A stretch of DNA of 51,923 nt, from contig JAENYD010000016.1 of NCBI GenBank assembly GCA_016842005.1, positions 1 to 51,923 of the forward strand, read 5' to 3'. Below are positions 232 to 18,148 of the stretch, one piece after another; the first letter of the stretch is position 1, and every line of letters begins with the position of its first letter. The notes under the pieces were generated by a model. The model was given only the letters and a program-made list of their open reading frames with translations. It ran no database searches and was not told where the DNA came from. The translations under genes were made by a program, and so were the position numbers. The DNA is from Clostridium thermobutyricum. GTDB lineage: Bacteria > Bacillota > Clostridia > Ch29.

Positions 232-2301
232 TTATGGGAGTTTTAACACTGTCCCCACGGGAATATCATATATGTCTTCTATGTCGTTTAACTCCCGAAT
301 CACTTCTATCATTCTCTTGGTACCGTAAAATTTCATGCTGATTGAATAAAGGGTGTCCCCTGCTTTCACTATATAATAATCATACGTATCATTTAAGCCC
401 TGGTTACTCTGTGTATTTCCCTGGGGTAAAGAAGTGTCCTTCGGATAATGTTCTGAATTTGTGTCTCTTCCTTCCTCTGATTTATTGCCGCTGCTATTCG
501 ATGCTCCTGAAGAGGTATTCCCGCCGGCTGCATCGGTATTCTCTTCTGCATCGTCCAATATGACGGGCCATACATCCTCCTCATCAGATATATTCAAAGC
601 TTTTGTCCTGTCTATCTCAAATTTTTTTATACCATAATACCTGTCTCCGAATGGGTCCCGATAAATATTGAAGGCTATCTGAGAGTTTCCTTTTGCGTCC
701 TTTGCGGTTACCCGCCAGTAGTATACGCCTGGTTTAAGATTTTGAATTTCAATCCCGGTATGCACTATATCTTTAAATGCAGTCACAACAGAAGAAAAAT
801 CCTTATCCCTGCTCAGCTCAAAATCGTAGGACAAGCTGTCTCCCTGAATATCATAGGACCCGGTCCAGGTGAACAGATATTTATTCCCCTTTTGCTCCGG
901 CCCCATTAAGTAAAAGGGCATGGGATTTTCCAGCAACTCGTAATAATAAAGGCGGTTTCTTTCAGTCAGCCGGGGCATATCTTCATACTGTCTCCTGTAT
1001 TCTTCCAGTGTGACGGGTAGATACTTGAGGTCAGGAAGGGCGGTTATGCTTGATAAAATGATATCGTAATAGGCATCCAGAAAAGCCCTTGTCTGTTCTT
1101 CATTGACAATGGTGCTCAACTCTTCAATCTTTTCGCTTAATGCCTCAACATTTTCAGGCTCCAGGAGAAACCTTCTATGCAGCACGTTATCCCAGCACAT
1201 GGATATGCCCTTCTGCCATTTGGGCCGGTCTTCACCAAGACCCCATGCTTCATCATAATCATACGGCATAAAATACCATTTATTAGAATTCAATGGGCTG
1301 TAAAGCAAGAAATTTGTATCAGATATCCCGTAGTTGTCAAACAGGATATTTGCAGCCAGCCACGTTAAATAGTTTTCTCTGTCAAAATATGTCTCTATAA
1401 TCTGGTCGATATCAATACTGCAATCATTAACAGCCTCCAGCATATCTATCAGCTTCTGATGGTCTTCATTGCCCTGTATCTCCAGTATCTCTTCAAAATC
1501 TTTTTTGGAATAGCCGCTGTCTCCCTTATTTTTTATGTTTTGAGGATACCGTAAAAACTTGAAATTTTCCGCTTCATACAGATGCCCGTTCGAATCCAGC
1601 CTGTGATTTGTCAGAAACAGCTTGTTTGGCTGCTCAACCTGAGTGAAGAGGCCGTAATTTTCAAATTTCTCATCCGGAGGTTCGGCAGACAAATCTTTTA
1701 TGAACAATGTGACAAACCTGGTCCTGAGACTGGTTATGTCCGGAATAATGGCAAAATAGTCAAAAGACAGCTTGTTACGTATTCTAAGGGGGTCAGAGTA
1801 ATCCTTGTTAAGGTTGATAATATTTTGATTGTGCCATAATCCTTCTCTGTCATATAACCTTATTTTAAACGACTTTTGGATGTCTTTTCCCTGAGACTTT
1901 CCTTTCAGCCCCATCACTGCATTGGGTTCCCTGATAAAAATGCCGTTATTGATAATACTGTTATTGCCATCCTGGAAATACACTTCGATTTCAGGTTTAG
2001 TCTCCTCATTATCTTCACTGTATGCTAAAAGGTCCTGAAAGCTGCAAGTCTGTTCACCGCTATATTCTTTCGGTTTCAGGACAGTAACATATATTTCATC
2101 CGGTTTTGTTTGTACATCATCTTTATAGATATCCCGGTTATCAGTTATACGGGCATTGTCAAGAGGATTGACCCAGTTTTCTTCATCGAATGCAGAGTAT
2201 GTTTGTTTCCGGCTATCATATAGGACAAAAAAATAAAGGCCATAATATATGGTAATACATAAAAGGACAAAAATAATACTGAGCTTCATCCAGCCCCTCA
2301 T
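232..2301 (-). CDS. CotH-family protein kinase with C-terminal LysM domain
   Basis: Predicted membrane-anchored CotH-type kinase of 689 residues. Residues 5-27 form a signal anchor. About residues 45-440 match the CotH fold, with conserved RNKLSFDYF, VEQPNK, FDNY, NFLLYSPLN and the DYD motif at about 348-350, which in CotH kinases belongs to the metal/ATP site. About 465-550 resemble a fibronectin-like Ig domain, 585-635 are a Ser/Asn-rich linker, and 640-689 are a LysM domain (VKAGDTLYSI). CotH proteins phosphorylate spore-coat proteins in Bacillus; the target here is unknown. LysM suggests binding to peptidoglycan or another GlcNAc polymer, perhaps the Pel polymer. It is the last gene of the operon and a paralogue of the protein at 3779-5497. 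The ATG at 2301 follows GGGGGT; an internal ATG four codons in is possible. Confidence 0.85.
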   Translation of the reverse strand: MRGWMKLSIIFVLLCITIYYGLYFFVLYDSRKQTYSAFDEENWVNPLDNARITDNRDIYKDDVQTKPDEIYVTVLKPKEYSGEQTCSFQDLLAYSEDNEETKPEIEVYFQDGNNSIINNGIFIREPNAVMGLKGKSQGKDIQKSFKIRLYDREGLWHNQNIINLNKDYSDPLRIRNKLSFDYFAIIPDITSLRTRFVTLFIKDLSAEPPDEKFENYGLFTQVEQPNKLFLTNHRLDSNGHLYEAENFKFLRYPQNIKNKGDSGYSKKDFEEILEIQGNEDHQKLIDMLEAVNDCSIDIDQIIETYFDRENYLTWLAANILFDNYGISDTNFLLYSPLNSNKWYFMPYDYDEAWGLGEDRPKWQKGISMCWDNVLHRRFLLEPENVEALSEKIEELSTIVNEEQTRAFLDAYYDIILSSITALPDLKYLPVTLEEYRRQYEDMPRLTERNRLYYYELLENPMPFYLMGPEQKGNKYLFTWTGSYDIQGDSLSYDFELSRDKDFSSVVTAFKDIVHTGIEIQNLKPGVYYWRVTAKDAKGNSQIAFNIYRDPFGDRYYGIKKFEIDRTKALNISDEEDVWPVILDDAEENTDAAGGNTSSGASNSSGNKSEEGRDTNSEHYPKDTSLPQGNTQSNQGLNDTYDYYIVKAGDTLYSISMKFYGTKRMIEVIRELNDIEDIYDIPVGTVLKLP

Positions 2302-2334
2302 AATGCGTATACCCCCGTTTTAATGATATAGCAC

Positions 2335-3015
2335 TTATTCTGCATAATCACCGTTATATTTCACCAGTACTGCACTGTCTACCCCTTCTATATTTGACAG
2401 GTTTTCTACGAATGAGGTATTATCCCCTACTTTTCTCAGTTCCAGCGTTAATTCAGTTTTTCCATTGGCAACCGTTTTGGATTTCAAAACATGCTTCAGT
2501 TTGTTCAGTATGAATAACACATCTTTTTGGGCGGCCTCATCATATTTCACAATTAAAAGATATGTTGTAATCTTCAGCTTTTTGCGGGACATAATTATCA
2601 TTACTATGCCAATAAACAGTGAACCGCCGATTGCAACAGGATATATCCCGGCTCCCGACGCTATTCCCGCCGCAATTGCCCAGAACATGAATGAAATATC
2701 CTTCGGGTCTTTTATGGCAGCCCTGAACCTTACAATACTCAATGCGCCCACCATGCCCAATGACAGCACTATATTAGAGCTGATTGTCATAATGACCAGA
2801 GAAGTAACCAGACTGAGCAACACCAGCGATGTATTGAAGCTGTGACTGTAAACCACACCCTGGAAGGTGATTTTGTATATACAGAATATAAACAGTGCTA
2901 CAGCCAGGGAGATAAAAAGTGCTATTAAAATATTAACCAGGGACGGGTCTGCAAAGTTTGGCAGTTCAAGTATGCTTTTTTTTATGATATCTTGAAAACT
3001 CAGTGGACCTTTCAT
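2335..3015 (-). CDS. DUF4956 family membrane protein
   Basis: 226-residue protein with about four membrane helices between residues 25 and 145 and a cytoplasmic C-terminal domain of about 80 residues. The stretch GMVGALSIVRFRAAIKDP followed by a Gly/Ala-rich helix is the DUF4956 signature. The function of the family is not established. It is often encoded beside VTC-type polyphosphate polymerases and CotH proteins, exactly as here. By analogy with eukaryotic VTC complexes it could help carry or couple polyphosphate or its precursor across the membrane; that is inference. Start ATG at 3015, preceded by GGAGGTTCTC. It lies 25 nt after the VTC gene, clearly in the same transcript. Confidence 0.85.
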   Translation of the reverse strand: MKGPLSFQDIIKKSILELPNFADPSLVNILIALFISLAVALFIFCIYKITFQGVVYSHSFNTSLVLLSLVTSLVIMTISSNIVLSLGMVGALSIVRFRAAIKDPKDISFMFWAIAAGIASGAGIYPVAIGGSLFIGIVMIIMSRKKLKITTYLLIVKYDEAAQKDVLFILNKLKHVLKSKTVANGKTELTLELRKVGDNTSFVENLSNIEGVDSAVLVKYNGDYAE

Positions 3016-3040
3016 GAGAACCTCCAGCAGTGAGAATGAT

Positions 3041-3745
3041 TTATTTCAGGCTGTTAACAGCCTCCATGCACAGCGCATATTTGGATGCCGCAGAAATATT
3101 ATGACTGCATATTTGAAGCAGGTTGTGGACATATGTCGGTAAGAATGCTCCATATTTGATTTCCAGAATCATTACCGGCTTGTCAAAGATTGCTTTAGTG
3201 GCAATTGTATCGTCAAATATGTCAAAAGAATTAATGCCTGCCCTCAGGTCCTTGTCGAAAGTAATTCTTACATTGCCGGCTCCCAGTGTATAGGCTTCCC
3301 TTTCATAATCCACTATTACCGCGGGTTTAAGCAAATTGTTCCTGATTTCAATGTAGAATTCGCGAAACAGGCTGCAACCGGCATTCAGCAAAAACTGACA
3401 GTCCCCTTGCAGGATTGCGTAGAACCAGTCTTTGGTGAGGTCCGCCGTTTTTTTGCTGATATATTTGTCGTATTTGCTTTTCTTCTCCAGCCTGATCACT
3501 GTATCCGCCAGATTGTATATGCGTATCCTGTATTTCTTCCTCTCAAATATGCCTGACTTTTTTTCATACAGTGCACTATTGTAGATATCGTCAAAATACA
3601 GACTCCTTACATGATATCCGTCGTTAACAGCTGCGTGCCTGTCCTTCTCCAGGACTGCGTCAAGCCGTCTTTTTAAATGCGTGTATTCGTGGAGATTAAT
3701 AAAATACTTCAGTTCATGCCTCAATAAATTATCACCGTACCTCAT
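3041..3745 (-). CDS. VTC-domain polyphosphate polymerase
   Basis: 234-residue soluble protein of the VTC (vacuolar transporter chaperone) domain family, which makes polyphosphate from ATP inside a basic tunnel. Visible tunnel motifs in order: RHELKYFI near residue 8, VRSLYFDD near 47, RKKYRIRIY near 68, RLEKKSKYDKYISKK near 85, YEREAY near 150, RITFDKDLR near 160 and ILEIKYGAFLP near 195. The basic and acidic residues expected for phosphate, nucleotide and metal binding are kept, so it looks active. It sits between a CotH gene and DUF4956, a recurring trio. Start ATG at 3745 follows GAGGAGAGAAA. Confidence 0.88.
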   Translation of the reverse strand: MRYGDNLLRHELKYFINLHEYTHLKRRLDAVLEKDRHAAVNDGYHVRSLYFDDIYNSALYEKKSGIFERKKYRIRIYNLADTVIRLEKKSKYDKYISKKTADLTKDWFYAILQGDCQFLLNAGCSLFREFYIEIRNNLLKPAVIVDYEREAYTLGAGNVRITFDKDLRAGINSFDIFDDTIATKAIFDKPVMILEIKYGAFLPTYVHNLLQICSHNISAASKYALCMEAVNSLK

Positions 3746-3778
3746 TTTCTCTCCTCATAGTTAGTAACGTTACCCTTT

Positions 3779-5497
3779 TCATTCGATAGTAATTTTTCTA
3801 ACCCCATAATAACTATGCCCCTCTCCATCATATTGGTCAAACGCTTCCTGCCAGTTCCCCTTCCCATCATGGGCAGTCGCTTTCCAGTAATACCGGCCTG
3901 GCTTCAAATCTCCCACGCTGCAGCCGGTCTTTTTTAAACCCTTGTATGAAGCTATAATGTTTTTGAATTCAGGGTCCTTACTTAACATGAAGTTATACGT
4001 CAGGTCATCGCCCTGGAGGTCATAGGAGGCATCCCACGCAAATACATAACTGCCGTTTTGTAGTACGGGTTCCCCCAGAAAAAACGGCATGGGATTTTCC
4101 AGGGAAGCAAAGTAGTCTTTCCTGTTCTGCTCTGTAAGCCCGACCAGAGAGTATAACTGTTCTTTATATTCGCTTTCGGGTATTTCCAGGTATTTCGCAT
4201 CAGGCATCCTGTAAATATTATCTTTTACGGCACTGTAATAGCTGTCCAGCAGCTTCCGTGTATTTTCCCCGTTGATGATGTCTGACAGGGCCTCAATTTT
4301 TCTGTTCAGCGCCTCAACATTATCGATATCTTTAAAAAACCTGTTGAACAGCGCCATCCCCCAGTAATTTGAGAGGCCTTTTTGCCATTTACCTCTTTGT
4401 GTTGCTCCCTCCCACGTTCCATCATAATCCCAGGGGATGAAAAACCATTTATCGGAATTCAACGGGCTGTACAGCAGAAAATTCCTGCTGCTGGTATCGT
4501 AATTGTCAAACAGAATATTTACTGCCAGCCACGTCAGTAAGTTGTCCCTATCAAAGTATTTGTCAACCACCTCATTTATATCTCTGCTATAATCATTGAC
4601 TGCCTCCAGCATCTCTGTCAGCTTTTTATGGTCATTGCTGCCGCACACTTCGAGAATTTCTTCAAATTTATTGCTGTCATAGGTTAGGTCCTCTTTTACC
4701 TTTATAGCGTCCTCATACCTGAAGAACTCGAAATATTCGGCTTTGTACAGATGACCGTTTTTATCGAGATTATGCCTTTCCAGGAACCTTTTGTTGGGCT
4801 GTTCAATAAAAGTATATAACCCGTAATATTGGAACTCTTTATCCGGTGTTCTGGATGACAGGTCCTTTATATAAAGCCTTACAAAACGCGTGCGCAAACT
4901 CACAAAATCGGGAAGCATTTCAAAATAATCAAAGGACAATTTATTTCTTATCCTTAATGGATCATAAAAATGTTTATTTAAATTTATAATTTGAAAGTCC
5001 AGCCATTTTTCCGTACCGTCAAACAGCTTTATTTTATAGGACTTCTGAGATGCTAACCGGGCAGATTGCCCTCTTACCTCCATAGTCGCATTAGGGACAG
5101 GAGGAGACACGTCTCTTTCGCCGGGCTCGCCCGCCTCGAATAAGACTTCAACCACCGGGTCAACGGCATCGCTGACATACCCCTCATCAATATTATACGC
5201 CATATTGTTCAGCTGTTCAAAAGTGACAGCGTCTGCACTTGCCGGAGGCAGCACGGTCACATATAAATTGTCCACACGGGCATCCTGGTCTTCTTTGTAT
5301 ATCCCCTTGTTATCCACAAGTTTAGCCGTATTCAGCGGGTTTTCCCAGTTTTCCGGGACGTCCCGGTTTTCATCACCGGTGATTTCCTCCGCGACATCCG
5401 ATGCTGCCTTTCTCTCTCCTGTGGATGTGCTCACCAGTATGATGATTAACAGCAATATGAAAAACCCAAGGCCCAAACCCTGACGGACACTATTCAT
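3779..5497 (-). CDS. CotH-family protein kinase, membrane anchored
   Basis: 572-residue paralogue of the protein at 232-2301 but without LysM. Residues 8-25 are a signal anchor and 26-50 an acidic linker. The CotH domain covers about 50-470, with RNKLSFDYF, FIEQPNKRF, the Asn-Phe-Leu-Leu-Tyr motif near 339 and DYD at about 357-359. A C-terminal Ig/fibronectin-like module (about 485-560) ends the protein. It would act outside the membrane, or on exported substrates, using ATP and a divalent metal. It starts 6 nt after the pelG stop, so the two are translationally linked, which ties this kinase to polysaccharide synthesis. The family assignment is firm; the substrate is not known. Confidence 0.85.
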   Translation of the reverse strand: MNSVRQGLGLGFFILLLIIILVSTSTGERKAASDVAEEITGDENRDVPENWENPLNTAKLVDNKGIYKEDQDARVDNLYVTVLPPASADAVTFEQLNNMAYNIDEGYVSDAVDPVVEVLFEAGEPGERDVSPPVPNATMEVRGQSARLASQKSYKIKLFDGTEKWLDFQIINLNKHFYDPLRIRNKLSFDYFEMLPDFVSLRTRFVRLYIKDLSSRTPDKEFQYYGLYTFIEQPNKRFLERHNLDKNGHLYKAEYFEFFRYEDAIKVKEDLTYDSNKFEEILEVCGSNDHKKLTEMLEAVNDYSRDINEVVDKYFDRDNLLTWLAVNILFDNYDTSSRNFLLYSPLNSDKWFFIPWDYDGTWEGATQRGKWQKGLSNYWGMALFNRFFKDIDNVEALNRKIEALSDIINGENTRKLLDSYYSAVKDNIYRMPDAKYLEIPESEYKEQLYSLVGLTEQNRKDYFASLENPMPFFLGEPVLQNGSYVFAWDASYDLQGDDLTYNFMLSKDPEFKNIIASYKGLKKTGCSVGDLKPGRYYWKATAHDGKGNWQEAFDQYDGEGHSYYGVRKITIE

Positions 5498-5503
5498 ATG
5501 ATA

Positions 5504-6949
5504 CTAGCCCCCTATTCTGTTCAGCCTGTCGGCAAGACCTGCCAGCAGGCCTCTTTCCTTTTCCTTCCACGAGACCTGTATACAGAAGACATAATAATCG
5601 ATATTATTAAGGTGCATTACCAGCTGAATAATGGAAAATATTAAAGACATCAGACCGGCCATAAAAAATCCCAAACCATAGTAGGTCACGCCAAGATAAA
5701 TCGTGGCAAAAGTAAAAAGAAAACTTGTTGCCATAAAATGCAAAGCTGTTTTGCAGGCGCTTTTCTCGTTGTCAAAATACAGCAGTATTGTCATGATGAC
5801 AAACATGATTATTACACAATAATATCCCAGCGCCAGGATATTGTACATGTCGACCATGCCGGCAGTAAATCCTGCTAATGGCAACAATTTCATCCCCAAA
5901 ATAATAGAAGCGATCGTGAAAAACAGCTGTACTTCCATTATATAGATAAGTTCCTTATAAATGGTTCTTTTCATTTCCTTTTTTGCTGTTGCAATATCTT
6001 CGTAACAGGCGCCGTTATTGACCAGATAAAAATATTTACTGTATTTTTCATAAAATTCGGTTTCAACTTTTACAATAAACATTACCAGGGTGGGAATTAC
6101 GCTCAAAAAGGCATAAAATGCAGGAATATCATATGACGGGGCGTAAACATAAGTGTTTTCCAGGACACGATGCATACCGGAGAATCCCCAGAAAACAAAG
6201 TTATGCCCATACAGCCCAACGGTAAAAAATATATTTGTGAAAAAAATCAGGTAAAAATGGTCGTAATATCGGATAAAATTAAAATATAAAGTGCTTTTGC
6301 CTTTAAAATAGCGTTGAACCTCACAGGCCAGGGAGACGATTACAACAAGGATGCACAGGTCAAAGGCAATTATTACGGACAAAATTTCCTCCAGAATGGT
6401 GTATTTGATCAATATATATCCGGTTATCAATCCCAGAACAGTACCGTAAAAAAAACTGTAGGCAACTTTTTTAAAGTTCTTGACTGCCGATACATACACG
6501 CTCAATACTGTCTCAATAACCAGTTCAATAAACAGCAAATAGGCAGAAAATCTATATGCCGTATCCAGGGGTGACATATAGTAGAATATACAGGCTGCCA
6601 GTCCCGCAACCATCAGTATTATCGCGAGGGAACCGTATAATGACGGCAGGATATCTTCTTTTTCCCCCAGATATAACCTGTCCGATAAATATCTGGACAG
6701 CATCATGCAATAACCGCTTGATATAATTACCGAAAATATGAAAGAGTACATAATGGTAGCCTGCAGAATATCCCTTTCATATCTTTCCACCCCTATATAC
6801 TTCAACATGAACTGCATAAAGGTTATTGCCGTGACACTGATCACTACCGGCCCAACCGTGACGAATATTGAATAAAGATAGGCTCTGGCGTTAGCCATCA
6901 ATCCTCTGTCTTTATAAAGCTTTTTTAACTCAAAGCCAATGCCTGCCAT
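5504..6949 (-). CDS. pelG: PelG, Pel polysaccharide export membrane protein
   Basis: 481 residues with about 12 membrane helices, the usual size for PelG (a MOP-flippase relative that passes the Pel polymer across the membrane together with PelD, PelE and PelF). The N-terminal GIGFELKKLYKDRG followed by the first helix is the family signature. It overlaps the end of pelF by 25 nt, and its stop is 6 nt before the next gene (cotH), so pelF, pelG and cotH are one translational unit. No truncation or frameshift is apparent. Confidence 0.93.
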   Translation of the reverse strand: MAGIGFELKKLYKDRGLMANARAYLYSIFVTVGPVVISVTAITFMQFMLKYIGVERYERDILQATIMYSFIFSVIISSGYCMMLSRYLSDRLYLGEKEDILPSLYGSLAIILMVAGLAACIFYYMSPLDTAYRFSAYLLFIELVIETVLSVYVSAVKNFKKVAYSFFYGTVLGLITGYILIKYTILEEILSVIIAFDLCILVVIVSLACEVQRYFKGKSTLYFNFIRYYDHFYLIFFTNIFFTVGLYGHNFVFWGFSGMHRVLENTYVYAPSYDIPAFYAFLSVIPTLVMFIVKVETEFYEKYSKYFYLVNNGACYEDIATAKKEMKRTIYKELIYIMEVQLFFTIASIILGMKLLPLAGFTAGMVDMYNILALGYYCVIIMFVIMTILLYFDNEKSACKTALHFMATSFLFTFATIYLGVTYYGLGFFMAGLMSLIFSIIQLVMHLNNIDYYVFCIQVSWKEKERGLLAGLADRLNRIGG

Positions 6950-8361
6950 TTTCGTTCACTTCCAAACTGTTCATATATTTTTTTATATTTGAAAACAAAA
7001 TCTTCCTTCCTGTATAAATGGGCAATTCTATTACAGGCATTCTGTCCCATTTCTTTCCGCAAACCCTCGTCTTTACACAGCTTGATTATGGACTGCGCTA
7101 TCCCGTTATAATCCATTATATGTTCGACAAAACCGGCTTGTCCGTAGTGGTCATGTTTCCCATAGAGGAGGTCCCTGCAGGCCCCGACATTTGTACACAC
7201 ATGGGGTTTCCGGGCTGCCATACCCTCCATGACGGCCAGGGGCTGCCCTTCGCTTATGCTGGTTAGGACCAGTATATCCATTTTCCCAATATAATCAGTT
7301 GTATTTACCTCACCTGTGAAATGGACATCCTGCAGGTCTAGCTGCCTTACAAGCTCCAGACATTCGTTATAATATTCAGGATTATCATCCGTAGGACCCA
7401 TGACAAAAAATTTCGCATTTTTAATCTCTTCTTTGACTATGTTAAAGCTGAGCAGCATGGTCTTTATATCTTTAATCGGCACCACTCTGATAATCGCTCC
7501 GATATTTATACTGTATTCGTCTTCCTTTTCAGGAATATCCCTGAACTCTGATACTTCAATGCCATTCGGAATAATGGTTATCTTTTCTTCCGGACATCCC
7601 AGCTCAACCTGCAGTTCTTTGTTGGTATCAAACAGAGATACCACCTTGTCTGCTGCATTGTATGCGCAGCGGGAAAGATTATAAAAATAGTTGATCCAGA
7701 CTTCCTTGTAATGCCCCTTAACCCAGTCAGCTTTTATGACCTCTTCCTCCCGTTCTCTTGTATAGATACCATGTTCAGACAATATAAAAGGCTTGTTATA
7801 TAAAAACTTGGCATAACTGGCCAGGACCCCGGCATATCCGGTAGAAACGCTGTGGTACAGGTCTGCCCGGGGCATATCCTGCATAAGAAGATAAAACAAA
7901 AAAATATACATTGACCGTATAGTCCAGATAAATTCGGTAAAGGGCGTATACGGATACTGGTTTCTGTACGTTTCTATTACGAGGTCATAAAAATCCTTGC
8001 TCATGAAAAAATCGGTCACATGTTTGAACCGGTTGCCCCTGAATATTTCAAATACTGCATTCCAGGAAAAGCTCTCCCCCGCCAGCAGTCCTTTCAAAGC
8101 TTCCCTTTCATCTTTACGGAGCTTATATCTTTTGCCTTTTGTCCCTCCCGCAAACTCTATATTATCCAGAAAAACGTCTGAAATTTTTATTACATTGGCA
8201 GGGAGTTTATATTTATACTCTCCCGCACAGCCGGAATCCGCTCCAATGGCATAAATAATAAACTCGTGTTCGGGGCAGGATGCAATCAATGTATTAATCC
8301 AGCCGGATACTCCACCTAATGTATACGGATAGCTTCCTTCAGCAAACATGCAAATGCGCAT
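6925..8361 (-). CDS. pelF: PelF, family GT4 glycosyltransferase of Pel synthesis
   Basis: 478-residue GT-B glycosyltransferase. The N-terminus (MRICMFAEGSYPYTLGGVSG) is the characteristic PelF opening. The C-terminal GT4 half carries the nucleotide-sugar EX7E motif at about Glu371 to Glu379 (SEGQPLAVMEG). PelF is soluble and in known systems polymerises UDP-linked aminosugar (GalNAc in Gram-positive and Pseudomonas work) at the inner face of the PelD/E/G complex. Start ATG at 8361 is preceded by AAGGTGAT and lies 4 nt after the deacetylase gene. Confidence 0.95.
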   Translation of the reverse strand: MRICMFAEGSYPYTLGGVSGWINTLIASCPEHEFIIYAIGADSGCAGEYKYKLPANVIKISDVFLDNIEFAGGTKGKRYKLRKDEREALKGLLAGESFSWNAVFEIFRGNRFKHVTDFFMSKDFYDLVIETYRNQYPYTPFTEFIWTIRSMYIFLFYLLMQDMPRADLYHSVSTGYAGVLASYAKFLYNKPFILSEHGIYTREREEEVIKADWVKGHYKEVWINYFYNLSRCAYNAADKVVSLFDTNKELQVELGCPEEKITIIPNGIEVSEFRDIPEKEDEYSINIGAIIRVVPIKDIKTMLLSFNIVKEEIKNAKFFVMGPTDDNPEYYNECLELVRQLDLQDVHFTGEVNTTDYIGKMDILVLTSISEGQPLAVMEGMAARKPHVCTNVGACRDLLYGKHDHYGQAGFVEHIMDYNGIAQSIIKLCKDEGLRKEMGQNACNRIAHLYRKEDFVFKYKKIYEQFGSERKWQALALS

Positions 8362-8365
8362 AAAA

Positions 8366-10192
8366 TCACCTTTTAAAATTTATTTGACATACGGGGTCAT
8401 GGCTTTCTATCAGGTAAACATCCCTGTCTATTTCTTTAACTCTGCAGTTTTCCGCATTTTGGATTTTTTTCTTGCTTCTCAGAACAAAATATGACTTATC
8501 AAAAAGATTGTCAGAGTATATCCTGATATAAGTATCCTTTTTTTCGTATACGGGGTCACATATAAGGTATTTAATCATTTCGTTCGCGCCTTCAGAGGCT
8601 GTCATGCCCCTTAGCCATCTGTAATTATCAAAAATAAATTTGTTGAACCGGTCATATTCCCTGTAAAGCCGGGACCATCCCTTGTTGCCGGTACGCTGGT
8701 AATCCAGAATATCATCAGGGTGAACAAAATGTGAAAAAACGCCGTGGGAAGTTATGCCATTTAATGCCAGCCAAACATTTTCCTCGGAATCGCTATATCC
8801 TGCTGTCAGTCTGGGAAATTCAACAATGCCATCCGGAGATATTTCAAATTCCTGGTCATAGGTATCTTTGCCTTCGGTTAATGCATACAGGGAACATATT
8901 ATTCTGATATCTGATTTTGCAGCCAAAATAGCTTCCCTCCCTTCAGGATATATTATGTTTGACGGCGGTACATATACCCTGAAGGTATAATTGGGAAAAG
9001 CTTTCTTGGACAACCTGTTTATTTCTTCAATCGCATCAATCATTGTATCGGTATCTTTCCACGGTTTATACCCGAGTTCTTTATCTGACAGCTCTTTGGT
9101 GGAAAACGGCTGGTGGTTGTATCCGTGTATACCAATTTCCCCGCCATGGGCGATAAGTTCCCGGCCATAAAAAATATAATCCTTTATGCTCAGGTCGGTT
9201 GACCCCGGTACAATTTTTTGGGTTTCATCATTGTATGTTCCTATCACAACGCCGGTATATTTAATATTATACTTTGCTGCCAGTTCCGCCATATCCGGCC
9301 ACCAGACATCTTTGTAAAACCGCGAGATGGTCATACCATATTCTTCGGTTATCTTCCCATAGGTTCCTTCCGGGATGGGGGCCGGAAAGTCATCGATAAA
9401 ACTCACTTTGGCATCAATGACCGGATATATAAAGTCTTCTTCCAGCAGGCCAAGGGCGCCTGTAATGAAGCCTCTGTTCCTTTTATCCGCCAGCACCGTC
9501 CCGTTGAAGTACATTATATTCCCCAGTCCATACCTCCTCTTCCATAATAGCGGTGTCCCGTCTATTGCCTCGGCATATTTCTCACAATCTCCTGTAAGTC
9601 TTAAACTGATTGATGAATTGGTCATTAACTCTTCTTCAGTTATTTCAAGCCCCTCGCCTTTTATAAGCACATTATCCAGAAGCCGGATGCCCTGGCAGTT
9701 GACAAAATCTCCGAATTCATAAATACCCAGTTTCCTGTAAATGGCCTGAAAATTCCCTGAAGGGGCCAGTCTGAAAGCGATGAACAAATTCCCGCCCTCG
9801 AATACATATGCCATCAAGTCATCTGGGTCGTAAAATCTGTCAATGTCCTCCAGAATCAGTATAACTGTATCGTATTCATCGTTAATATTACGAACACTGT
9901 CAACGTCAACAGCATCATACCCGATTTTTATATAGTCTAGCATCTTTTCAAAGTTCTCTTTTATTTTTAAAAATTCTTCCTTATCGTCATAAATCATAAG
10001 ATATCTGTCAGCAGGTATATCGTTAAGTAACGTTTTATCGATCCCCTTGCCCGATTTTTCATTAAAGTCAATGAGAGGCACATTTTCATTCCTGTTCAGC
10101 TTTATAATGAATTCTGAACGGGTGATTTCAATAAATAATGCCATCAGGACAACAAGCAACAGAACCACGGTGATTTGCTTTTTCCATTTCAT
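8366..10192 (-). CDS. pelA: PelA-type polysaccharide deacetylase (DUF2194)
   Basis: 608-residue exported protein. Residues 7-24 form a membrane anchor, about 45-250 a Rossmann-like N-terminal module, and about 255-545 a NodB-related deacetylase domain. The metal-site Asp pair is in FIDDFPAP (about 267-268) and the HxxxH motif in GIHGYNHQP (His356 and His360). It corresponds to the stand-alone deacetylase (PelA-DA) of Gram-positive pel operons. Those lack the Pseudomonas PelA hydrolase domain, and I see none here either. It would remove acetyl groups from the polymer outside the membrane. The ATG overlaps the pelE stop (TAAATG), with GGAAGGTG as the ribosome site. Confidence 0.88.
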   Translation of the reverse strand: MKWKKQITVVLLLVVLMALFIEITRSEFIIKLNRNENVPLIDFNEKSGKGIDKTLLNDIPADRYLMIYDDKEEFLKIKENFEKMLDYIKIGYDAVDVDSVRNINDEYDTVILILEDIDRFYDPDDLMAYVFEGGNLFIAFRLAPSGNFQAIYRKLGIYEFGDFVNCQGIRLLDNVLIKGEGLEITEEELMTNSSISLRLTGDCEKYAEAIDGTPLLWKRRYGLGNIMYFNGTVLADKRNRGFITGALGLLEEDFIYPVIDAKVSFIDDFPAPIPEGTYGKITEEYGMTISRFYKDVWWPDMAELAAKYNIKYTGVVIGTYNDETQKIVPGSTDLSIKDYIFYGRELIAHGGEIGIHGYNHQPFSTKELSDKELGYKPWKDTDTMIDAIEEINRLSKKAFPNYTFRVYVPPSNIIYPEGREAILAAKSDIRIICSLYALTEGKDTYDQEFEISPDGIVEFPRLTAGYSDSEENVWLALNGITSHGVFSHFVHPDDILDYQRTGNKGWSRLYREYDRFNKFIFDNYRWLRGMTASEGANEMIKYLICDPVYEKKDTYIRIYSDNLFDKSYFVLRSKKKIQNAENCRVKEIDRDVYLIESHDPVCQINFKR

Positions 10193-11065
10193 TTAGGCAC
10201 CTTCCAACCAGAATCTGACTATATCCAGACCTTTACCGGAAAGTTTCACCGGTGATTTCCTCAATCCTTCCAGAACAGCATAAAAGCTTTTTTTGTCTTT
10301 GATTAAATAATAATACTTCAAGTTAACCAGATAGGCCGCTTCGGTTTGGTTGTTTTCCAGAAATACCTTGCAGTAATTGCCTGCCCTGTCCAGTTCCCCC
10401 GCTTCAAACAAGGCATTAATCAGTTTACTGTAATATCTTTCATCGCTTTTACGGCTTTTTAGCATATTTTCCAGCATCTGGATATATATGTGCAATATTT
10501 TTTTACTATTGTACTGATCCAGCAGACCGCTCTCTAAATATTCTTCCAGCACGCTGGCATATTCTTTTGCCAGTTCCCCGTCAGCTTTATTTTTCTCATA
10601 TTGTACCGAAAATGCCTGGATTTTCAGGTCCAGGTTCCGCTTTATTTCGGACACGGCTGAAGCTGCATAATGGGCCGTTTCAACATCATCATCCCTGAGG
10701 GCAATTTTTAGCATATCAATATATTTGCTAGAATCTTTCTTCAGGGTATCAATAAGCTGTTGTCTTTTGGTTTTTGTATCATTGATGATCAATGTTTCTT
10801 CAAGGGGTACAAGGTTTGTTTCCTTTTCAATATTAATACGATCAGCAAATAATTCTACAATGCCTTTTATGCCAGGCTGGTCCTCAATTTCTTTATTCCC
10901 CTTGTTTCTTAGCAAATATAGAACCAATACGATAATATATCCCCCTACGGGGAAAAACAGGGATATTATGAAATTGGAAAATCTTTCCTGATTGTTTGCC
11001 CTGCCGGACCCCAAAAAGGCAATCAGGCAGCTAAGCGCTAAATGTGCTGTTATAAGGAGCTTCAT
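10193..11065 (-). CDS. pelE: PelE-like membrane protein
   Basis: 290 residues. Two N-terminal membrane helices (about 3-18 and 30-51) are followed by a largely helical cytoplasmic region with TPR-like repeats (Leu/Ala/Tyr periodicity, about 120-280). This matches PelE, the scaffold of the inner-membrane Pel complex, which is poorly conserved in sequence; the call rests on topology and position between pelD and the deacetylase. The ATG lies 35 nt inside the end of the upstream fusion gene, in another frame, with AAGGCGG as ribosome site. Confidence 0.75.
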   Translation of the reverse strand: MKLLITAHLALSCLIAFLGSGRANNQERFSNFIISLFFPVGGYIIVLVLYLLRNKGNKEIEDQPGIKGIVELFADRINIEKETNLVPLEETLIINDTKTKRQQLIDTLKKDSSKYIDMLKIALRDDDVETAHYAASAVSEIKRNLDLKIQAFSVQYEKNKADGELAKEYASVLEEYLESGLLDQYNSKKILHIYIQMLENMLKSRKSDERYYSKLINALFEAGELDRAGNYCKVFLENNQTEAAYLVNLKYYYLIKDKKSFYAVLEGLRKSPVKLSGKGLDIVRFWLEGA

Positions 11066-13256
11066 AGTATCCGCCTTCTTCCACCATTTCTACGCTTATA
11101 CCCATATCATTCAATCTCCTGATTACATACTGAGCTTCTTCAGCACTGGTATTTGACAATAGCATGAGCAGTTCATTGTTTTCATCAATACCAAGGTGGT
11201 CGGATTCCCGGATGCCTTTTTCAATTTGATATGCAATCCCCTTCTTCTCCCATTCATCCGCATCACGGATTTTCAGCAATATGAAATGGGTATTATTCTT
11301 TTGTTTTGATTCAATCTTGCTCTGAAGGAGTTGCCTGAAATACCCGCTTTTCAGTACGCATGTGCCTTTGATATATTTCTCGTCATAGATGGCCTGTTCA
11401 TATCGATAAGCCCGTGCCAGAGCCGATGTTACAAGGTTTGAAACCACCTGGAGAAGGTTTTGTTTGTACAGGGACATGGTTTCAAACTCCAGCGTATAGA
11501 CAGCAATTATGGCCAGCACCTTGTCGCCAACAATAATAGGTGACATCATCATGGGTAATGATTTTTTCAAATCCCTGTTGACAAATATGGATTTGTTGCG
11601 TATCAGATTTTCTATCTCAGGAATATCGCTCACTCTGATGGACTTGTCAACATTTATACTGCTTCCTTTGGACCTGGAAATCAGTCTTAAATAGTTCTGG
11701 TCCTTTGAAACAGAGAAAATATATACATCTTTTGATTTCATGACTTCTTCTATTACCCCTACAGTCCCGTCAAATACCTTCCCCGGTTCCAGGGTATCAA
11801 GGGCACTTGTAATGCTGTATATTTTGCCGAAACTGTCTTCAGCGTTGGTAATCTGGTCCTGGAGCTCTTTCCTTACAATCTTCCCTTCATTATACATATC
11901 ATAAAGAAAGTCAAATTTTTCTTTTATTTCTTTAATCTGTTCTTCTCTGTCTTCCACCTGGTACTTCTTGCTGTCCATGGAATAGCCCAGGACAGCCCCG
12001 ACAAAAATGTACAGGCTGAAATGAAGCAATGTGTTAACATTGTAAACGAGGGATATTATATCGTGGCCTGTTTCTCGAATTTCCCAGATGAACAGGATAC
12101 AGGAAAAAAAGGCTGCAATTGACGATTGTTTTAATCCGTAAAGGATACCGAAAATAATTATATAGACGAGTTTAAAGTCAACTATATCTTGCAACCCAAA
12201 TCCTTTGGAATACCGAGACAGGAAATATACGATAAGAAATGTCAGTAAATTTTCGATATATGGCACCAGTTTTTTAAATAAGTTATTGTTTTTCTTCTTT
12301 TCTTTAATCTTTTTTGGAGCGAGAATTCCAATTATATTTTCTCTTGTATAGCTTCTATACCACATGTATGTTTTTTTAATGCCCTGCTCCAGGCTGTACA
12401 TGGGTGTCCAGTTGAGCTCTTTTACCGCCTTGTCGTTCACCAGCCTGGAATGTAATATATCACCTTTCCTGGCCTTCGTATATTCTATTTTCACAGGAGA
12501 ATATATTTTTTGGACCAGTTTGGCCAGGTCCTGTATGCTATTTGAGACATTGGCAGATATATTGAGTATATCACACGAACAAAACTCTGCGGCCTTATAT
12601 ATGGCATCAACAACATCTTCCACATAAATAAAATCTCTCGTCTGTTCACCGCTGCCGTGAACCAGTAATGCTTTATTGTTGAAAATGTTATTCATGAAAG
12701 TGACAACAACGCCGCCCTCTCCTTTAGTTGATTGCCTTGGACCGTATACGTTTGAAAAACGGAGACATATTGTATCAAGACCATATATTTCCTTCCACAG
12801 CTTGCAATAATATTCTCCGGTCAGCTTGCTGACGCCATAGGGAGATACCGGATTGCATTCATCTTCTTCTGCAACGGCTGCCTCGCTGGAATTCCCGTAC
12901 ACTGCAGCAGAAGAGGCAAAAACAAATTTCCTTACATTGTATTTGCATGATAAGTACAGCATATTGATAAGGCCCAGGATATTGTACCGGGCGTCAGAAT
13001 AGGGGTCTTCCACAGAAGCCGCAGCATCAATATGCGCGGCCAAATGCACGACTACGTCAAATTCATTGTTCGCAAAGATTTCTTCGCATTTTCTATCTTC
13101 AACATTCATCTGATAGAACTTGTGCTTGATGTTAACATTTTCTTTGTGGCCTGACGAAAGATTGTCTATAATATATACCTTATAACCTTCTTTATAGAAT
13201 CTCTCGGCAGTATGGGAACCAATGAAACCATACCCCCCCGTTATAAGCACTTTCAT
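11031..13256 (-). CDS. pelD: Fusion of NAD-dependent sugar epimerase with PelD (c-di-GMP receptor)
   Basis: 741 residues from the ATG at 13256, chosen because AAGGGGG lies 9 nt ahead; an ATG at 13277 overlaps that site. Residues 1-305 are an extended SDR epimerase with the NAD motif GGYGFIG and catalytic Tyr140-Lys144 (YGVSK), of the UDP-GlcNAc/UDP-Glc 4-epimerase type (compare PelX). About 325-430 are four membrane helices, 470-615 a GAF domain, and 630-735 a degenerate GGDEF domain. An RxxD inhibitory-site motif (RESD, Arg683-Asp686) matches the c-di-GMP binding site of PelD. Epimerase and PelD are separate proteins in the model pel systems I know. The fusion would place UDP-aminosugar supply on the synthase complex. 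First gene of the operon. Confidence 0.88.
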   Translation of the reverse strand: MKVLITGGYGFIGSHTAERFYKEGYKVYIIDNLSSGHKENVNIKHKFYQMNVEDRKCEEIFANNEFDVVVHLAAHIDAAASVEDPYSDARYNILGLINMLYLSCKYNVRKFVFASSAAVYGNSSEAAVAEEDECNPVSPYGVSKLTGEYYCKLWKEIYGLDTICLRFSNVYGPRQSTKGEGGVVVTFMNNIFNNKALLVHGSGEQTRDFIYVEDVVDAIYKAAEFCSCDILNISANVSNSIQDLAKLVQKIYSPVKIEYTKARKGDILHSRLVNDKAVKELNWTPMYSLEQGIKKTYMWYRSYTRENIIGILAPKKIKEKKKNNNLFKKLVPYIENLLTFLIVYFLSRYSKGFGLQDIVDFKLVYIIIFGILYGLKQSSIAAFFSCILFIWEIRETGHDIISLVYNVNTLLHFSLYIFVGAVLGYSMDSKKYQVEDREEQIKEIKEKFDFLYDMYNEGKIVRKELQDQITNAEDSFGKIYSITSALDTLEPGKVFDGTVGVIEEVMKSKDVYIFSVSKDQNYLRLISRSKGSSINVDKSIRVSDIPEIENLIRNKSIFVNRDLKKSLPMMMSPIIVGDKVLAIIAVYTLEFETMSLYKQNLLQVVSNLVTSALARAYRYEQAIYDEKYIKGTCVLKSGYFRQLLQSKIESKQKNNTHFILLKIRDADEWEKKGIAYQIEKGIRESDHLGIDENNELLMLLSNTSAEEAQYVIRRLNDMGISVEMVEEGGYYEAPYNSTFSA

Positions 13257-14854: not shown

Positions 14855-15157
14855 ACCTGTCCCCCTCTAACCGGCCTTTTCATATTATTAGCCATTATAC
14901 TCACAAACCTTGTCGCTATAGTTTCGAAAGTTTTTTTGCGTAATACAATTTCTCCTCTGCATAATCCCTTTGATTAAGAATGAAATATGCCTCTTGCCTC
15001 AATCTTCCAATACCACGAGAGCTTATGAAATTCTTAACCTGCAAACGTCTCGACAGCAATTGTTCTCGAATTGCCTGAAACAAATCCTTTCACTTTCATT
15101 GTATGACTCATCTCTTAAGTCATCGAAATGACTGACGTGTTCAGAAAAACCAATGTT

Positions 15158-15207
15158 GTCAGAAGAACCGTCCCCTTGACAATCGAAGAACCGTCCCCTT
15201 GACAATC
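15158..15207. repeat. Tandem 23-bp GAAGAACCGTCCCC repeat
   Basis: Two exact tandem copies of a 23-bp unit occupy 15162-15184 and 15185-15207; each begins GAAGAACCGTCCCC and ends TTGACAATC. A truncated third copy (CCCCTTGGCA) follows. The first copy is nearly identical to the repeat at 191-217. The unit belongs to the REP-like GGGGACGGTTC family common in clostridial spacers. The surrounding 14855-15224 shows no credible gene; a 64-codon frame there is built from the repeat. Confidence 0.7.
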
Positions 15208-15657: not shown

Positions 15658-17088
15658 TCATATACCACCGTAATACTCCATTATTCCTTTATATATCCCT
15701 GTAGCAATCTGTTTTTTATACGTATCCCTTTCCAGCTTTTTTTCTTCCATGGGGTTTGATATATAGCCTATTTCCAGAATCAATGAGCTTACTTTTACTT
15801 CCCTTAAAATGTAAAAATTGGCTATCCTTACTCCCCGGTTTATAACACCCGCCTGGTCCACCATGTGTTTCATGATTGCCCCGCCCAGTTTTTCTCCTTC
15901 AGCATCCCCCTTAAAGTAATAGATCTCAGTACCGGATACTGTGGGATTTTCAATGGCATTGTGGTGTATGCTTATAAAAAAATGCGGTCTCAAATCATTG
16001 CCTATTTCCGCCCTCCTGGACATCAGTACTTTGCTGTCGTCTTCCCTGGTCAGGTAAACAACTGCTCCCGCTCCCCTCAGAGTTTCTGCAAGCATTTTGG
16101 ATATTTCCAGGTTAATGTCTTTTTCTTTCAGCCCTCCTATTCCCCTGTTATCACTGTCATCTCCTCCATGACCGGGGTCCAGGACAAATACTTTGCCCTT
16201 CAAGGGCTTATCTTTTTCAAAACTCCTTATGCCGGTTATCTCTACCCCTGTAAAGTAGTAATGGATTATCTCTCTATATCCATATCCCTTAGCTGCCATG
16301 GCATTGGCGCCATGCTGGCACATTCCCAGCCCATGACCTTTTCCTCCGCTGTAAATCCTGAAAATCAGCGGATCCCAGCCGAAACGGGTGGAGTTCAGCC
16401 CGAGAAGCTGCTTTACATCGCTACCCCTGAAACACTTGCCGCCAATTTTTATATTTCTTACTCTGCCTTCCCGGTCCCTTTCGATTTCATCAATTATGCC
16501 TTTCACCGAAGGCGCTTCAACGGCACTGGCCCTTTTTATCCTTACCCCAAGTTTTTCTTCCACTTCTTCTATGGTCACGTCCCTGGTATTCTCCCAGTAC
16601 AGGGATTCTCTGCAGTAATCGCACAATACTTTCCGTAGATATAATACCTTATTCCCTATTACGTCTTCCGAATTTTCGGTAGCCCCTCCGCAGCAGGGAT
16701 GATAATAGGGATGAATGGGCTTACTGTTAACCGTTACTATTTCTCCCCGGGTTGACAGGGCTGCCTCCATTATCCTGTCCCATTTTTCCTGATAACTGCC
16801 CCCCCAGAGCTCTTTCAACTCCTCCCTGGACAACCATTTCTCACAGTGCCCGCTGTTGCATATATCTGCTCCTGCATAAGCCCTGCACCCTTCACCATCG
16901 TATACGGGAAGCTGTCTTACTATGCCTGTCCTTATAAGAAGAGCCTGGGCCTTGAGTGCTTCCATGTTGAAGCACGGAGACATCCGGGAAGCCAGAAGCT
17001 CCGCCACCAGTTCGTCCAGGGGCATTTTGACCATACCATTCATATTATTATAATAAACTTTGATAATTACATTTTCTCCGCACGTCAA
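15658..17088 (-). CDS. SpoIID/LytB domain fused to Amidase_3 peptidoglycan amidase
   Basis: 476 residues. Residues 20-285 are SpoIID-like (PLDELVAELL, MEALKAQALLIRT, GHGLGMCQHGANAMAAKGY). Residues 298-474 are an N-acetylmuramoyl-L-alanine amidase with intact zinc and catalytic residues: His307 in DPGHGG, Glu322, His376 in SIHHNA and Glu439 in LILEIGY. The position of the SpoIID catalytic Glu (AAEMP in the family) reads ASRMS, with Arg35. The SpoIID half is Cys-rich (CNSGHC, HPCCGG, CDYC). No signal peptide or membrane helix is seen. Start is TTG at 17088, 9 nt after GGAGGAGG; the ATG just upstream runs straight into TGA. It lies 21 nt after yabG and so probably acts during sporulation, where SpoIID and an amidase remodel septal or cortex peptidoglycan. 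Confidence 0.88.
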   Translation of the reverse strand: MTCGENVIIKVYYNNMNGMVKMPLDELVAELLASRMSPCFNMEALKAQALLIRTGIVRQLPVYDGEGCRAYAGADICNSGHCEKWLSREELKELWGGSYQEKWDRIMEAALSTRGEIVTVNSKPIHPYYHPCCGGATENSEDVIGNKVLYLRKVLCDYCRESLYWENTRDVTIEEVEEKLGVRIKRASAVEAPSVKGIIDEIERDREGRVRNIKIGGKCFRGSDVKQLLGLNSTRFGWDPLIFRIYSGGKGHGLGMCQHGANAMAAKGYGYREIIHYYFTGVEITGIRSFEKDKPLKGKVFVLDPGHGGDDSDNRGIGGLKEKDINLEISKMLAETLRGAGAVVYLTREDDSKVLMSRRAEIGNDLRPHFFISIHHNAIENPTVSGTEIYYFKGDAEGEKLGGAIMKHMVDQAGVINRGVRIANFYILREVKVSSLILEIGYISNPMEEKKLERDTYKKQIATGIYKGIMEYYGGI

Positions 17089-17109: not shown

Positions 17110-17985
17110 CTAAATATAGGGGGATTTTGGCAGCCCTTCCCTGTATTTACCCCTGGTCTGAAGGCCGCCTATACCTTCCAGCCCTGTTATTGTGCTGGCA
17201 ATAAGCTCTTCCACCGATACTATTTTGTCAATTCCGGAATAGGATATTTTTTCACAAATAAAAACCGGGTCCAGTGCGTGAATCAGAACCCTGTTGGGAG
17301 AACTGGCAAAATTGGCCCCCGCCCCTAGAATAGCCTCAAAATGAGACTGGCAGGCCCCGGCAAAAATAACCAGGTCGTCATAGGAGGGGTCAAACTTCCT
17401 GGCCTCTTTTACAGCCGCAGTAAAGTACTTTGAATTTCTATAATAGTTTATATCCTTAATATCATCATATCCTTTAATAAGGCTGTCATGACCTGTTAAA
17501 ACCAGTATATCCGGCAGTTCTTCCCTTAATAGCTCCCCAACCACTGAGGGCTGTTCACTTTCGGGGACATAATGGCCTATCACCTTTATATCCAGTTTAT
17601 AGTATGTCTCCATGCACATATCAAGGTATTCTTTATCTCCATCCAGGTGAAGGACTTTTCCCGACCTGCCGAAAGAATTCTTGCTCCTGTACAGAAAGGC
17701 ATTCTTGATACCCCTTGAGTTGCTCCTGTTTTTCCTTTCGCTCATAACACTGGAGATGCGCTTGGAAATGATTTCATTATAGGTTTTCTTATAAGAGCTT
17801 GTATCTTTACCTGTCATCCTGACCAGGTCGGTTTCAGGAGCGTCTGCCAGAATCCTCAGATTGACCCCCTTTAATATAAAAACCCTCTCCTTGGCGGAGT
17901 GGTCTATTACTTCAACCACTTTAAACAATATATCACAATCGTATGATTTCCTGGCTACCAAGTCTCCAATTCTAATTCCGGTCAC
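17110..17985 (-). CDS. yabG: YabG sporulation-specific protease
   Basis: About 291 residues of the YabG family (peptidase U57), a mother-cell protease that trims spore-coat proteins. Matches include IGDLVARKSYDCDILF at the N-terminus, KVLHLDGD, VLTGHDSL, the segment YRNSKYFTAAV, VIFAGACQSHFEAI and GANFASSPNRVLIHALDPV. The cysteine and histidine of GACQSHF are the likely catalytic pair. I start it at GTG 17985, 6 nt after GGAGGG; an ATG at 17991 abuts the ribosome site and a TTG at 18012 lacks one. It forms an operon with the SpoIID-amidase gene. Confidence 0.92.
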   Translation of the reverse strand: MTGIRIGDLVARKSYDCDILFKVVEVIDHSAKERVFILKGVNLRILADAPETDLVRMTGKDTSSYKKTYNEIISKRISSVMSERKNRSNSRGIKNAFLYRSKNSFGRSGKVLHLDGDKEYLDMCMETYYKLDIKVIGHYVPESEQPSVVGELLREELPDILVLTGHDSLIKGYDDIKDINYYRNSKYFTAAVKEARKFDPSYDDLVIFAGACQSHFEAILGAGANFASSPNRVLIHALDPVFICEKISYSGIDKIVSVEELIASTITGLEGIGGLQTRGKYREGLPKSPYI

Positions 17986-18148
17986 TTCCATCCCTCCTGG
18001 ATAACCTTTCAATATGATTGATTAATATATATTATGAAGTGAAAGAGGAGGGTGTGCATTCGTCCCCGGCATACCCGGTTTGAATCATAGTTGTAATCGG
18101 AATAACCGCAGGTACGGCATCGACAAAAATTTTTCACTGTAGTAACGG

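Follow-up and report, generated by a model that had tools for sequence, protein, structure and literature searches.

The nine-gene operon described here, from Clostridium thermobutyricum, probably encodes a c-di-GMP-controlled Pel synthase together with an envelope phosphate module that tunes the amount of the polymer and its retention. The pairing of pel genes with phosphate genes has already been published and partly tested by knockout, and this headline is not new; what is new here includes a physical tie of CotH to the Pel exporter, predicted from single open reading frames that join PelG and CotH. The phosphate genes are a portable unit, which is used far more often without Pel.

Organization of the operon

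Nine minus-strand open reading frames at positions 232–13256 of the window (the whole stretch of 51,923 nt of contig JAENYD010000016.1 that was analysed), the positions of which were confirmed, form a pel operon with a tail of phosphate genes:

11031–13256, minus strand: pelD, with an N-terminal UDP-sugar 4-epimerase domain (Epimerase, E=1.3e-58), followed by membrane, GAF-like and degenerate GGDEF-like parts
10193–11065, minus strand: pelE (no Pfam match; ORF homologs at the same position in most of 80 Pel loci)
8366–10192, minus strand: pelADA, DUF2194 polysaccharide deacetylase with an N-terminal anchor (PF09960, E=2e-153)
6925–8361, minus strand: pelF, GT4 glycosyltransferase, the Pel polymerase (NF038011 PelF equivalog, E=1.5e-106, above the cut-off)
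5504–6949, minus strand: pelG, polymer exporter (PF16933, E=1e-124)
5498–5520, minus strand: pelG–cotH1 junction, with a 6 nt gap
3779–5497, minus strand: cotH1, predicted outward-facing CotH kinase with an N-terminal membrane anchor (PF08757, E=2e-59)
3041–3745, minus strand: VTC polyphosphate polymerase domain, cytosolic (PF09359, E=4e-38)
2335–3015, minus strand: DUF4956 membrane protein with MgtC-like helices and an ACT-like cytosolic domain (PF16316, E=8e-13)
232–2301, minus strand: cotH2-LysM, CotH-like predicted pseudokinase with a Ser/Asn-rich linker and a C-terminal LysM domain (PF08757, E=1e-51; LysM, E=7e-8)

The intergenic distances range from −35 to +33 nt, and the single-operon layout proposed in the initial annotation is borne out by the coordinates: pelD and pelE overlap by 35 nt, pelE and pelADA are separated by 0 nt, pelADA and pelF by 4 nt, pelF and pelG overlap by 25 nt, and the gaps that follow are 6 nt (pelG and cotH1, as had been noted), 33 nt (cotH1 and VTC), 25 nt (VTC and DUF4956) and 33 nt (DUF4956 and cotH2). 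The ribosome site of cotH1 (AGGGGGC) overlaps the stop codon of pelG, and a promoter/terminator scan gave no terminator-like site in the gap between them; weak terminator-like sites inside the genes are about as frequent as in shuffled sequences. The window begins at the contig end, so that genes past cotH2-LysM are out of view.

The block is mildly richer in A/T, as had been claimed (G+C of 0.408 versus 0.464). A step in G+C at the block is found at other pel loci and is absent from two near relatives, and a horizontal origin inferred from G+C is not supported; the VTC of the window also groups firmly with those of other clostridial pel loci in the VTC tree, and the separate origin that had been suggested is not upheld.

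The Pel core

The start of pelD at 13256 (ATGAAAGTGC) is immediately preceded by a purine-rich ribosome site, and a longer frame opens at 13277. The best solved relative of its epimerase domain is the UDP-glucose 4-epimerase 4zrm (E=3e-67), and the GGYGFIG and SPYGVSK motifs are intact. In the 748-residue PelD frame the RESD at residue 690 matches the RxxD site for c-di-GMP, and RxxD occurs at the aligned position in all other PelD proteins except one; an Rfam scan found no c-di-GMP riboswitch in the pelD leader. The gene order D–E–ADA–F–G is present, with pelF and pelG adjacent, and the identification of the first five genes as Pel genes holds through Pfam and NCBIfam matches, whereas pelE and the PelD core, which have no Pfam match, were recognized from where they lie and from their homology to the corresponding genes of other pel loci. 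Judged from these domains and motifs, the epimerase domain and PelD, PelE, PelF and PelG are a predicted synthase and exporter for a GalNAc-type polymer under c-di-GMP control, which PelADA would deacetylate; Pel has been described as partly deacetylated galactosamine/N-acetylgalactosamine (PMC9135694).

The predicted polyphosphate polymerase and its membrane partner

The VTC sequence of the window by itself found nothing in the PDB, whereas a profile of the 71-sequence VTC family matches yeast Vtc4 (3g3q) with E=1.6e-21. In this alignment the six catalytic residues of the Vtc4 type (K200, R264, R266, K281, K294 and R361) correspond to K13, R73, R75, K89, K98 and R149 of the window protein, and all six are invariant in the 71 sequences. 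No PPK1 was found in the host genome.

DUF4956 carries a near-invariant Arg-rich motif, GALSIVRFRTAxKDP. A PDB sequence search with this protein gave no convincing match. In its model (pLDDT of 80) the C-terminal domain resembles MgtC (7qa5; Z of 9.7, r.m.s.d. of 2.3 over 78 residues), and many ACT-like folds are similar to it, those of 7qa5 and 2lqj included. The fold search placed this ACT-like end only, so that its lack of a Vtc1-like match speaks neither for nor against one in the membrane half. A weak MgtC Pfam match is found in 23 of the 71 members (best E 8e-6); MgtC is a regulator and not a known channel, and this likeness speaks against the envelope-module proposal.

The two CotH proteins and the tie to PelG

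The initial annotation had counted two CotH kinases; both belong to the CotH family, but a kinase assignment stands for the first one only. CotH1 matches the spore-coat CotH 5jd9 (E=3.5e-14), has a hydrophobic segment at residues 7–25 and possesses the equivalents of D228 and D251, which are 23 residues apart as in 5jd9; the D228Q and D251A substitutions each abolish CotH activity (PMC7821199). The kinase residues are retained in 48 of the 49 first CotH copies. The second CotH has lost Asp228 in the window and in the three other loci of its type, with G at this position in the window and K, A and K in its relatives L076, L077 and L078, and LysM is found on the second CotH of the window and is absent from those of the three relatives. 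CotH2 is thus a predicted pseudokinase, a CotH paralog without catalytic function that carries a domain for wall binding. We know of no CotH1 substrate, and no report of phosphate on Pel was found in the open-access papers searched; both points count against the envelope-module proposal.

An N-terminal hydrophobic segment is present in each of the 38 unfused pel CotH proteins. Seventeen loci have PelG and CotH in a single open reading frame, with an additional hydrophobic helix and a lipobox Cys that never varies at the junction, so that CotH would face outwards at the exporter. A ribosome site at the CotH start is absent from 16 of these fusions, and a start codon able to give CotH its own signal peptide is absent from six. 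The fusion probably arose twice, since the VTC tree unites 16 of the loci in one clade and sets one (L151) apart. An AlphaFold model of a fusion (pTM of 0.48) forms both domains, with an unstructured linker (residues 454–528) and undefined mutual placement. No earlier report of the fusion or of the VTC–DUF4956 pair was found in the open-access papers searched, which is not proof of novelty.

Distribution and comparison with known systems

CotH, VTC and/or DUF4956 were found within a few kilobases in six of the 11 PelG loci of 291 Clostridia genomes, with 0.04 expected, and the proposed co-occurrence above chance was thus confirmed. All three genes lie downstream of pelG in 45 of 71 complete named Pel loci and in every one of the 25 with an intact epimerase–PelD, whereas the module is wholly absent from 20 of the 39 complete loci with a degenerate epimerase; therefore, Pel does not need the module. 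The set had also been described as locked to Pel in the window: it does recur directly after pelG, but it is not Pel-specific, as the 291 genomes contain at least 52 VTC–CotH places without pelG within 15 kb. These places contradict the statement that the trio is absent outside pel (PMC12345266). About half of the genomes have VTC and DUF4956 as a nearly constant pair, mostly outside Pel, and its neighbour is either CotH or a Cthe_2159 protein, with both together in none of 150 places. This exclusivity was discarded as a statistic: some four changes of label on the VTC tree suffice, so that the Fisher value overstates it.

The link to Pel is not unreported: for streptococci, clostridia and bifidobacteria, Whitfield 2020 (PMC7112168) already describes pel loci contiguous with cotH, a polyphosphate polymerase and DUF4956. 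The Gram-positive pelDEADAFG set of that study shares with the window the core order, the accessory genes of its group 2 (cotH–PPP–DUF4956) directly 3′ of pelG and the epimerase–PelD fusion, and differs in a DUF4832 gene that is not in the window, where the contig ends past cotH2-LysM. The window has in addition the second, predicted dead CotH with LysM, and its epimerase motifs are intact, whereas clostridial epimerase domains are described there as altered and Brevibacillus ones as possibly functional.

In Streptococcus intermedius (SIR_1591–1594; PMC12345266) CotH, VTC and DUF4956 likewise adjoin pel, but streptococci are without the c-di-GMP control and the SIR_1591 glycoside hydrolase is absent from the window. 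There, pelDEADAFG is essential; without the CotH homologue both Pel and aggregation fall, and without the DUF4956 homologue Pel rises but aggregation falls. Deletion of VTC had no clear phenotype and the cells still aggregated, an observation against the envelope-module proposal; polyphosphate may be dispensable or may act under other conditions.

NELoc-2 of Clostridium perfringens has the order VTC–(226 aa)–VTC–(222 aa)–CotH–685 aa–HEAT–GT (PMC2879425), and its gene order and lengths match the modules of L161, L169 and other loci found here. Its 222–226 aa 'tubulin/FtsZ' genes are, from length and place alone, very likely DUF4956; the module serves a GT2 synthase locus, whereas that of the window sits with Pel. 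Like the window, the yeast VTC complex (3g3q, 8i6v; PMC9911596) combines a VTC domain that bears the Vtc4 catalytic residues with a partner in the membrane, but the window has no SPX domain, its DUF4956 partner resembles MgtC with no Vtc1 similarity found, and the bacterial outward partner is CotH or Cthe_2159. The Bacillus spore-coat kinase CotH (5jd9; PMC7821199) has the kinase domain and both catalytic Asp residues in common with CotH1, which, unlike it, is predicted to be anchored outside the membrane, and CotH2 is without Asp228.

Role of the phosphate module

The broad proposal that phosphate chemistry takes place at the envelope is judged to be right. In the arrangement that we favour, VTC would make polyphosphate at the inner membrane face, DUF4956, its constant membrane partner, would act as a coupler or regulator, CotH1, by its sequence an outward-facing atypical kinase, would act outside, at PelG, on the emerging polymer or on anchor proteins, and CotH2-LysM would be a scaffold in the wall or receive the CotH1 modification. 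The net effect would be to set the quantity of Pel and the firmness of its retention on the cells, with the module dispensable for Pel synthesis itself.

Several other roles were weighed. It is unlikely, if the least so of these, that VTC–DUF4956 is an MgtC-like sensor of phosphate or energy that adjusts the level of Pel to phosphate status and exports nothing: the MgtC similarity, the ACT-like C-terminal domain and the raised Pel on loss of the DUF4956 homologue (PMC12345266) are consistent with it, but the similarity is weak and an outward kinase or carbohydrate-binding protein as partner is left unexplained. That polyphosphate itself is the matrix partner, a polyanion holding partly deacetylated, cationic Pel, would agree with the deacetylation (PMC9135694), the intact VTC residues and the streptococcal DUF4956 phenotype (PMC12345266); CotH and its fusion to PelG would then be unaccounted for and the VTC deletion still aggregated, and we regard it as quite improbable. 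Exported polyphosphate could also be the phosphoryl donor, made by VTC, exported by DUF4956 and used by outward CotH where ATP is scarce. The outward-facing CotH, the recurrence of the three genes in and outside Pel, the Arg-rich motif, the feeding of polyphosphate by yeast Vtc4 into a membrane channel (PMC9911596) and the ATP source of spore-coat CotH, called unanswered (PMC7821199), point this way. However, CotH uses ATP in vitro (PMC7821199), the VTC knockout of S. intermedius had no clear effect (PMC12345266), many VTC–DUF4956 pairs adjoin Cthe_2159 proteins instead and no polyphosphate-dependent protein kinase was found in the open-access papers searched, which makes this role doubtful indeed. 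Its widest form is a long shot: VTC, DUF4956 and CotH would be a general extracellular phosphorylation system, with polyphosphate threaded out via DUF4956 as the donor for surface CotH, and the pel kinase, coupled to or translated with the exporter, would phosphorylate the emerging polymer or wall anchors.

Phosphorylation of PelD or PelE by CotH, as a control on synthesis, would follow the proposal of Whitfield et al. (PMC7112168) that protein phosphorylation regulates Pel biosynthesis, and loss of CotH does lower Pel (PMC12345266), but CotH is predicted to lie outside the membrane in the 38 unfused proteins and the fusions and the PelD sensor domain is cytosolic, and such regulation seems very improbable. 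Least probable of all is the sporulation-time or spore-surface Pel of the initial annotation. The host, with Spo0A, and with YabG and a SpoIID-amidase near the locus, probably forms spores, and the best-known CotH proteins are those of spore coats; however, the cassette occurs in non-sporulating streptococci (PMC12345266), all pel CotH copies have a membrane or signal segment at the N terminus, in contrast to a coat protein that the mother cell produces, and c-di-GMP control fits biofilm growth. The initial annotation as a whole is partly supported: it was right on Pel identity, operon and co-occurrence, whereas its spore-surface role has no positive support and its separate origin is weakly supported.

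In conclusion, deletion phenotypes are on record for the accessory genes that Gram-positive pel loci carry, but a mechanism is not. The exporter–kinase fusion would put CotH on the outer side, where the polymer leaves the cell; this speaks against regulation from the cytosol and offers a concrete protein for study. The VTC–DUF4956 pair with its interchangeable outward partners turns a Pel curiosity into a widespread putative phosphate system, with ties to NELoc-2.

Organization of the operon

The nine-gene block at 232-13256 is real and was correctly described in the initial annotation, all genes lying on the minus strand where it had placed them, with intergenic gaps, in order, of -35, 0, 4, -25, 6, 33, 25 and 33 nt. 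Its choice of 13256 as the start of pelD was also the better one, since a ribosome site is found there, the frame itself opening at 13277. Family searches identified the first five genes as an epimerase with the PelD core, pelE (without a Pfam match), the DUF2194 deacetylase PelADA, the polymerase PelF and the exporter PelG, and the last four as CotH, the polyphosphate polymerase VTC, DUF4956 and a second CotH with LysM. The window starts at the contig edge, 231 nt past the last operon gene and at a dispersed repeat, and the operon could therefore extend further. A copy of this 22-nt repeat, GGGGGACGGTTCTCCTGACAAT, separates the operon end from the contig end; 21 places in the genome match it with at most two mismatches, several of them as close inverted pairs. 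The repeat copies and other features of the window are as follows.

188-209 and 15155-15176 (-), copies of the 22-nt repeat
15658-17088 (-) and 17110-18012 (-), SpoIID and amidase_3 domains in one protein, adjoining the sporulation protease YabG
18196-18360 (+), M-box magnesium riboswitch (153 bits), preceding the next feature
18491-19837 (+), MgtE magnesium transporter gene
28873-29113 (-), T-box leader (114 bits)

Association of the accessory genes with Pel

Whitfield et al. (2020; PMC7112168) reported that streptococci, clostridia and bifidobacteria carry the accessory set beside pelDEADAFG and that it correlates with the epimerase domain on PelD, and a 2025 study of Streptococcus intermedius (PMC12345266) deleted each gene. 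As both are published, the co-occurrence test proposed in the initial annotation has in essence already been performed by others; the core association of pel with the accessory genes is known, and the novelty here lies in the variant features and in how much more widely the module is distributed. When the test was rerun on a single draw of 291 Clostridia genomes (VTC in 149, DUF4956 in 146, CotH in 110 and PelG above the cut-off in 11), co-occurrence was again above chance: CotH, VTC and/or DUF4956 flanked six of the 11 PelG loci, against an expectation of 0.04 loci for VTC within 10 kb of PelG.

Among 80 named Pel loci annotated with profiles built in this analysis, cotH-VTC-DUF4956 was present in every one of the 25 complete loci whose epimerase-PelD is intact, versus 18 of the 39 complete loci with a degenerate epimerase (VTC-DUF4956 only in one more; Fisher p = 2e-6, uncorrected for kinship), and in one of six loci scored without an epimerase, the PelD of that one being cut by the contig end. 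At one locus (L109:3-1321) VTC-DUF4956 precedes pelD rather than following pelG. The window epimerase retains GxxGxxG and YxxxK, as do those of the Bacilli pel loci examined, bar one truncated ORF, whereas Lachnospiraceae epimerases differ from it in these motifs; the alteration of clostridial epimerases described in PMC7112168 thus does not hold generally for this branch. The window PelD contains the c-di-GMP RxxD motif; in the nearest relative pelD is apparently split into two ORFs in the assembly (L076:3696-5919).

Occurrence of the module outside Pel

The VTC-DUF4956-CotH module is not Pel-specific. Among 150 VTC places listed in Clostridia, at least 129 lie on the same strand as a DUF4956 gene no more than 1.5 kb away, and at least 55 have CotH within 5 kb, at least 52 of these without PelG inside 15 kb. 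PMC12345266 states that the trio is absent outside pel; these counts contradict it. Places without CotH often have a Cthe_2159-family secreted protein in its stead, as in at least 43 of the places listed, none of which has both. The non-Pel settings, among them modules beside a two-component system, include the following, given by compared locus.

L161, L162, L166, L167, L169, L170, L173: VTC-DUF4956-CotH-720 aa secreted protein (no Pfam match)-HEAT-GT2 synthase
L156 (G000:C37:3078-6490): second VTC-DUF4956-CotH module in the same genome as the window, response regulator and histidine kinase downstream, no Pel genes across the 14 kb read
L179, L180, L183, L189-L193: VTC-DUF4956, then directly a Cthe_2159 (PF14262) secreted beta-helix protein in place of CotH

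NELoc-2 of C. perfringens (PMC2879425) has the same order as the L161-type GT2 cassette, with similar lengths; its DUF4956 seems to have been annotated as tubulin/FtsZ. On the VTC tree, partner types cluster strongly (four changes versus 34 in shuffles) and one or two origins suffice for pel-associated VTC, so that each subfamily has long been faithful to its partner; the window VTC groups with those of its relatives L076-L078 (support 100/99).

CotH copies and the PelG-CotH fusion

The first CotH aligns with spore-coat CotH (5jd9) and keeps the equivalents of D228 and D251, assigned from the alignment and the 23-residue spacing; the D228Q and D251A mutants are inactive (PMC7821199). The pair is kept in 48 of 49 first copies of pel loci, the other being cut off. 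Among pel loci the second copy, after DUF4956, is restricted to the window and L076-L078, where the D228 position holds G, K, A or K, and it is predicted from sequence to be a conserved pseudokinase. Its LysM and Ser/Asn-rich linker occur in the window only, without a counterpart in L076-L078.

In 17 loci PelG and CotH form a single open frame of 1029-1069 codons, both families being matched by Pfam in one chain. Sixteen belong to Paenibacillus, Brevibacillus, Psychrobacillus, Rummeliibacillus and Solibacillus and form one clade on the VTC tree, and the other is from a Lachnospiraceae genome (L151); the fusion therefore probably arose twice. Neither PMC7112168 nor PMC7112194 mentions it in the main text. 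At the junction there is an additional hydrophobic helix and, after it, a lipobox with a cysteine invariant in 17/17. A ribosome site is found there in only one fusion, and a separate CotH start with a signal is impossible in six of the 17, which have no suitable ATG, GTG or TTG. In an AlphaFold model a disordered linker (454-528) joins PelG to CotH, which has a beta-rich tail. Either the chain is cut by signal peptidase II into an exporter and a lipoprotein kinase or it is left joined; with either processing, CotH is predicted to lie outside, beside the exporter. Unfused pel CotH proteins have an N-terminal hydrophobic segment in 38/38 cases and a lipobox, by a simple pattern, in 14/38.

Functional implications

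The invariant VTC residues match K200, R264, R266, E279, K281, K294, Y359 and R361 of Vtc4 in the alignment (numbering counted from 8i6v_E), and PPK1 is absent from the host genome. DUF4956 bears a weak resemblance to MgtC; its end is ACT-like, and it carries a basic motif that is near-invariant. While the parts, their predicted membrane sides and the intact or lost active sites are established at the sequence level, the proposed mechanism goes further: VTC would synthesize polyphosphate, DUF4956 would couple this synthesis, and CotH may act on the polymer or on anchors where Pel leaves PelG. That polyphosphate is itself the phosphate donor for CotH is attractive, ATP being scarce at the location of CotH, but we consider it improbable. 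The main argument against a central role of polyphosphate is that deletion of the VTC homologue in S. intermedius had no clear effect (PMC12345266). In the same study Pel required pelDEADAFG, deletion of the CotH homologue decreased Pel and lowered aggregation by more than 50% in artificial sputum, and deletion of the DUF4956 homologue increased Pel and decreased aggregation. These published knockouts fit an accessory role of the module, in the amount and retention of Pel rather than in its synthesis.
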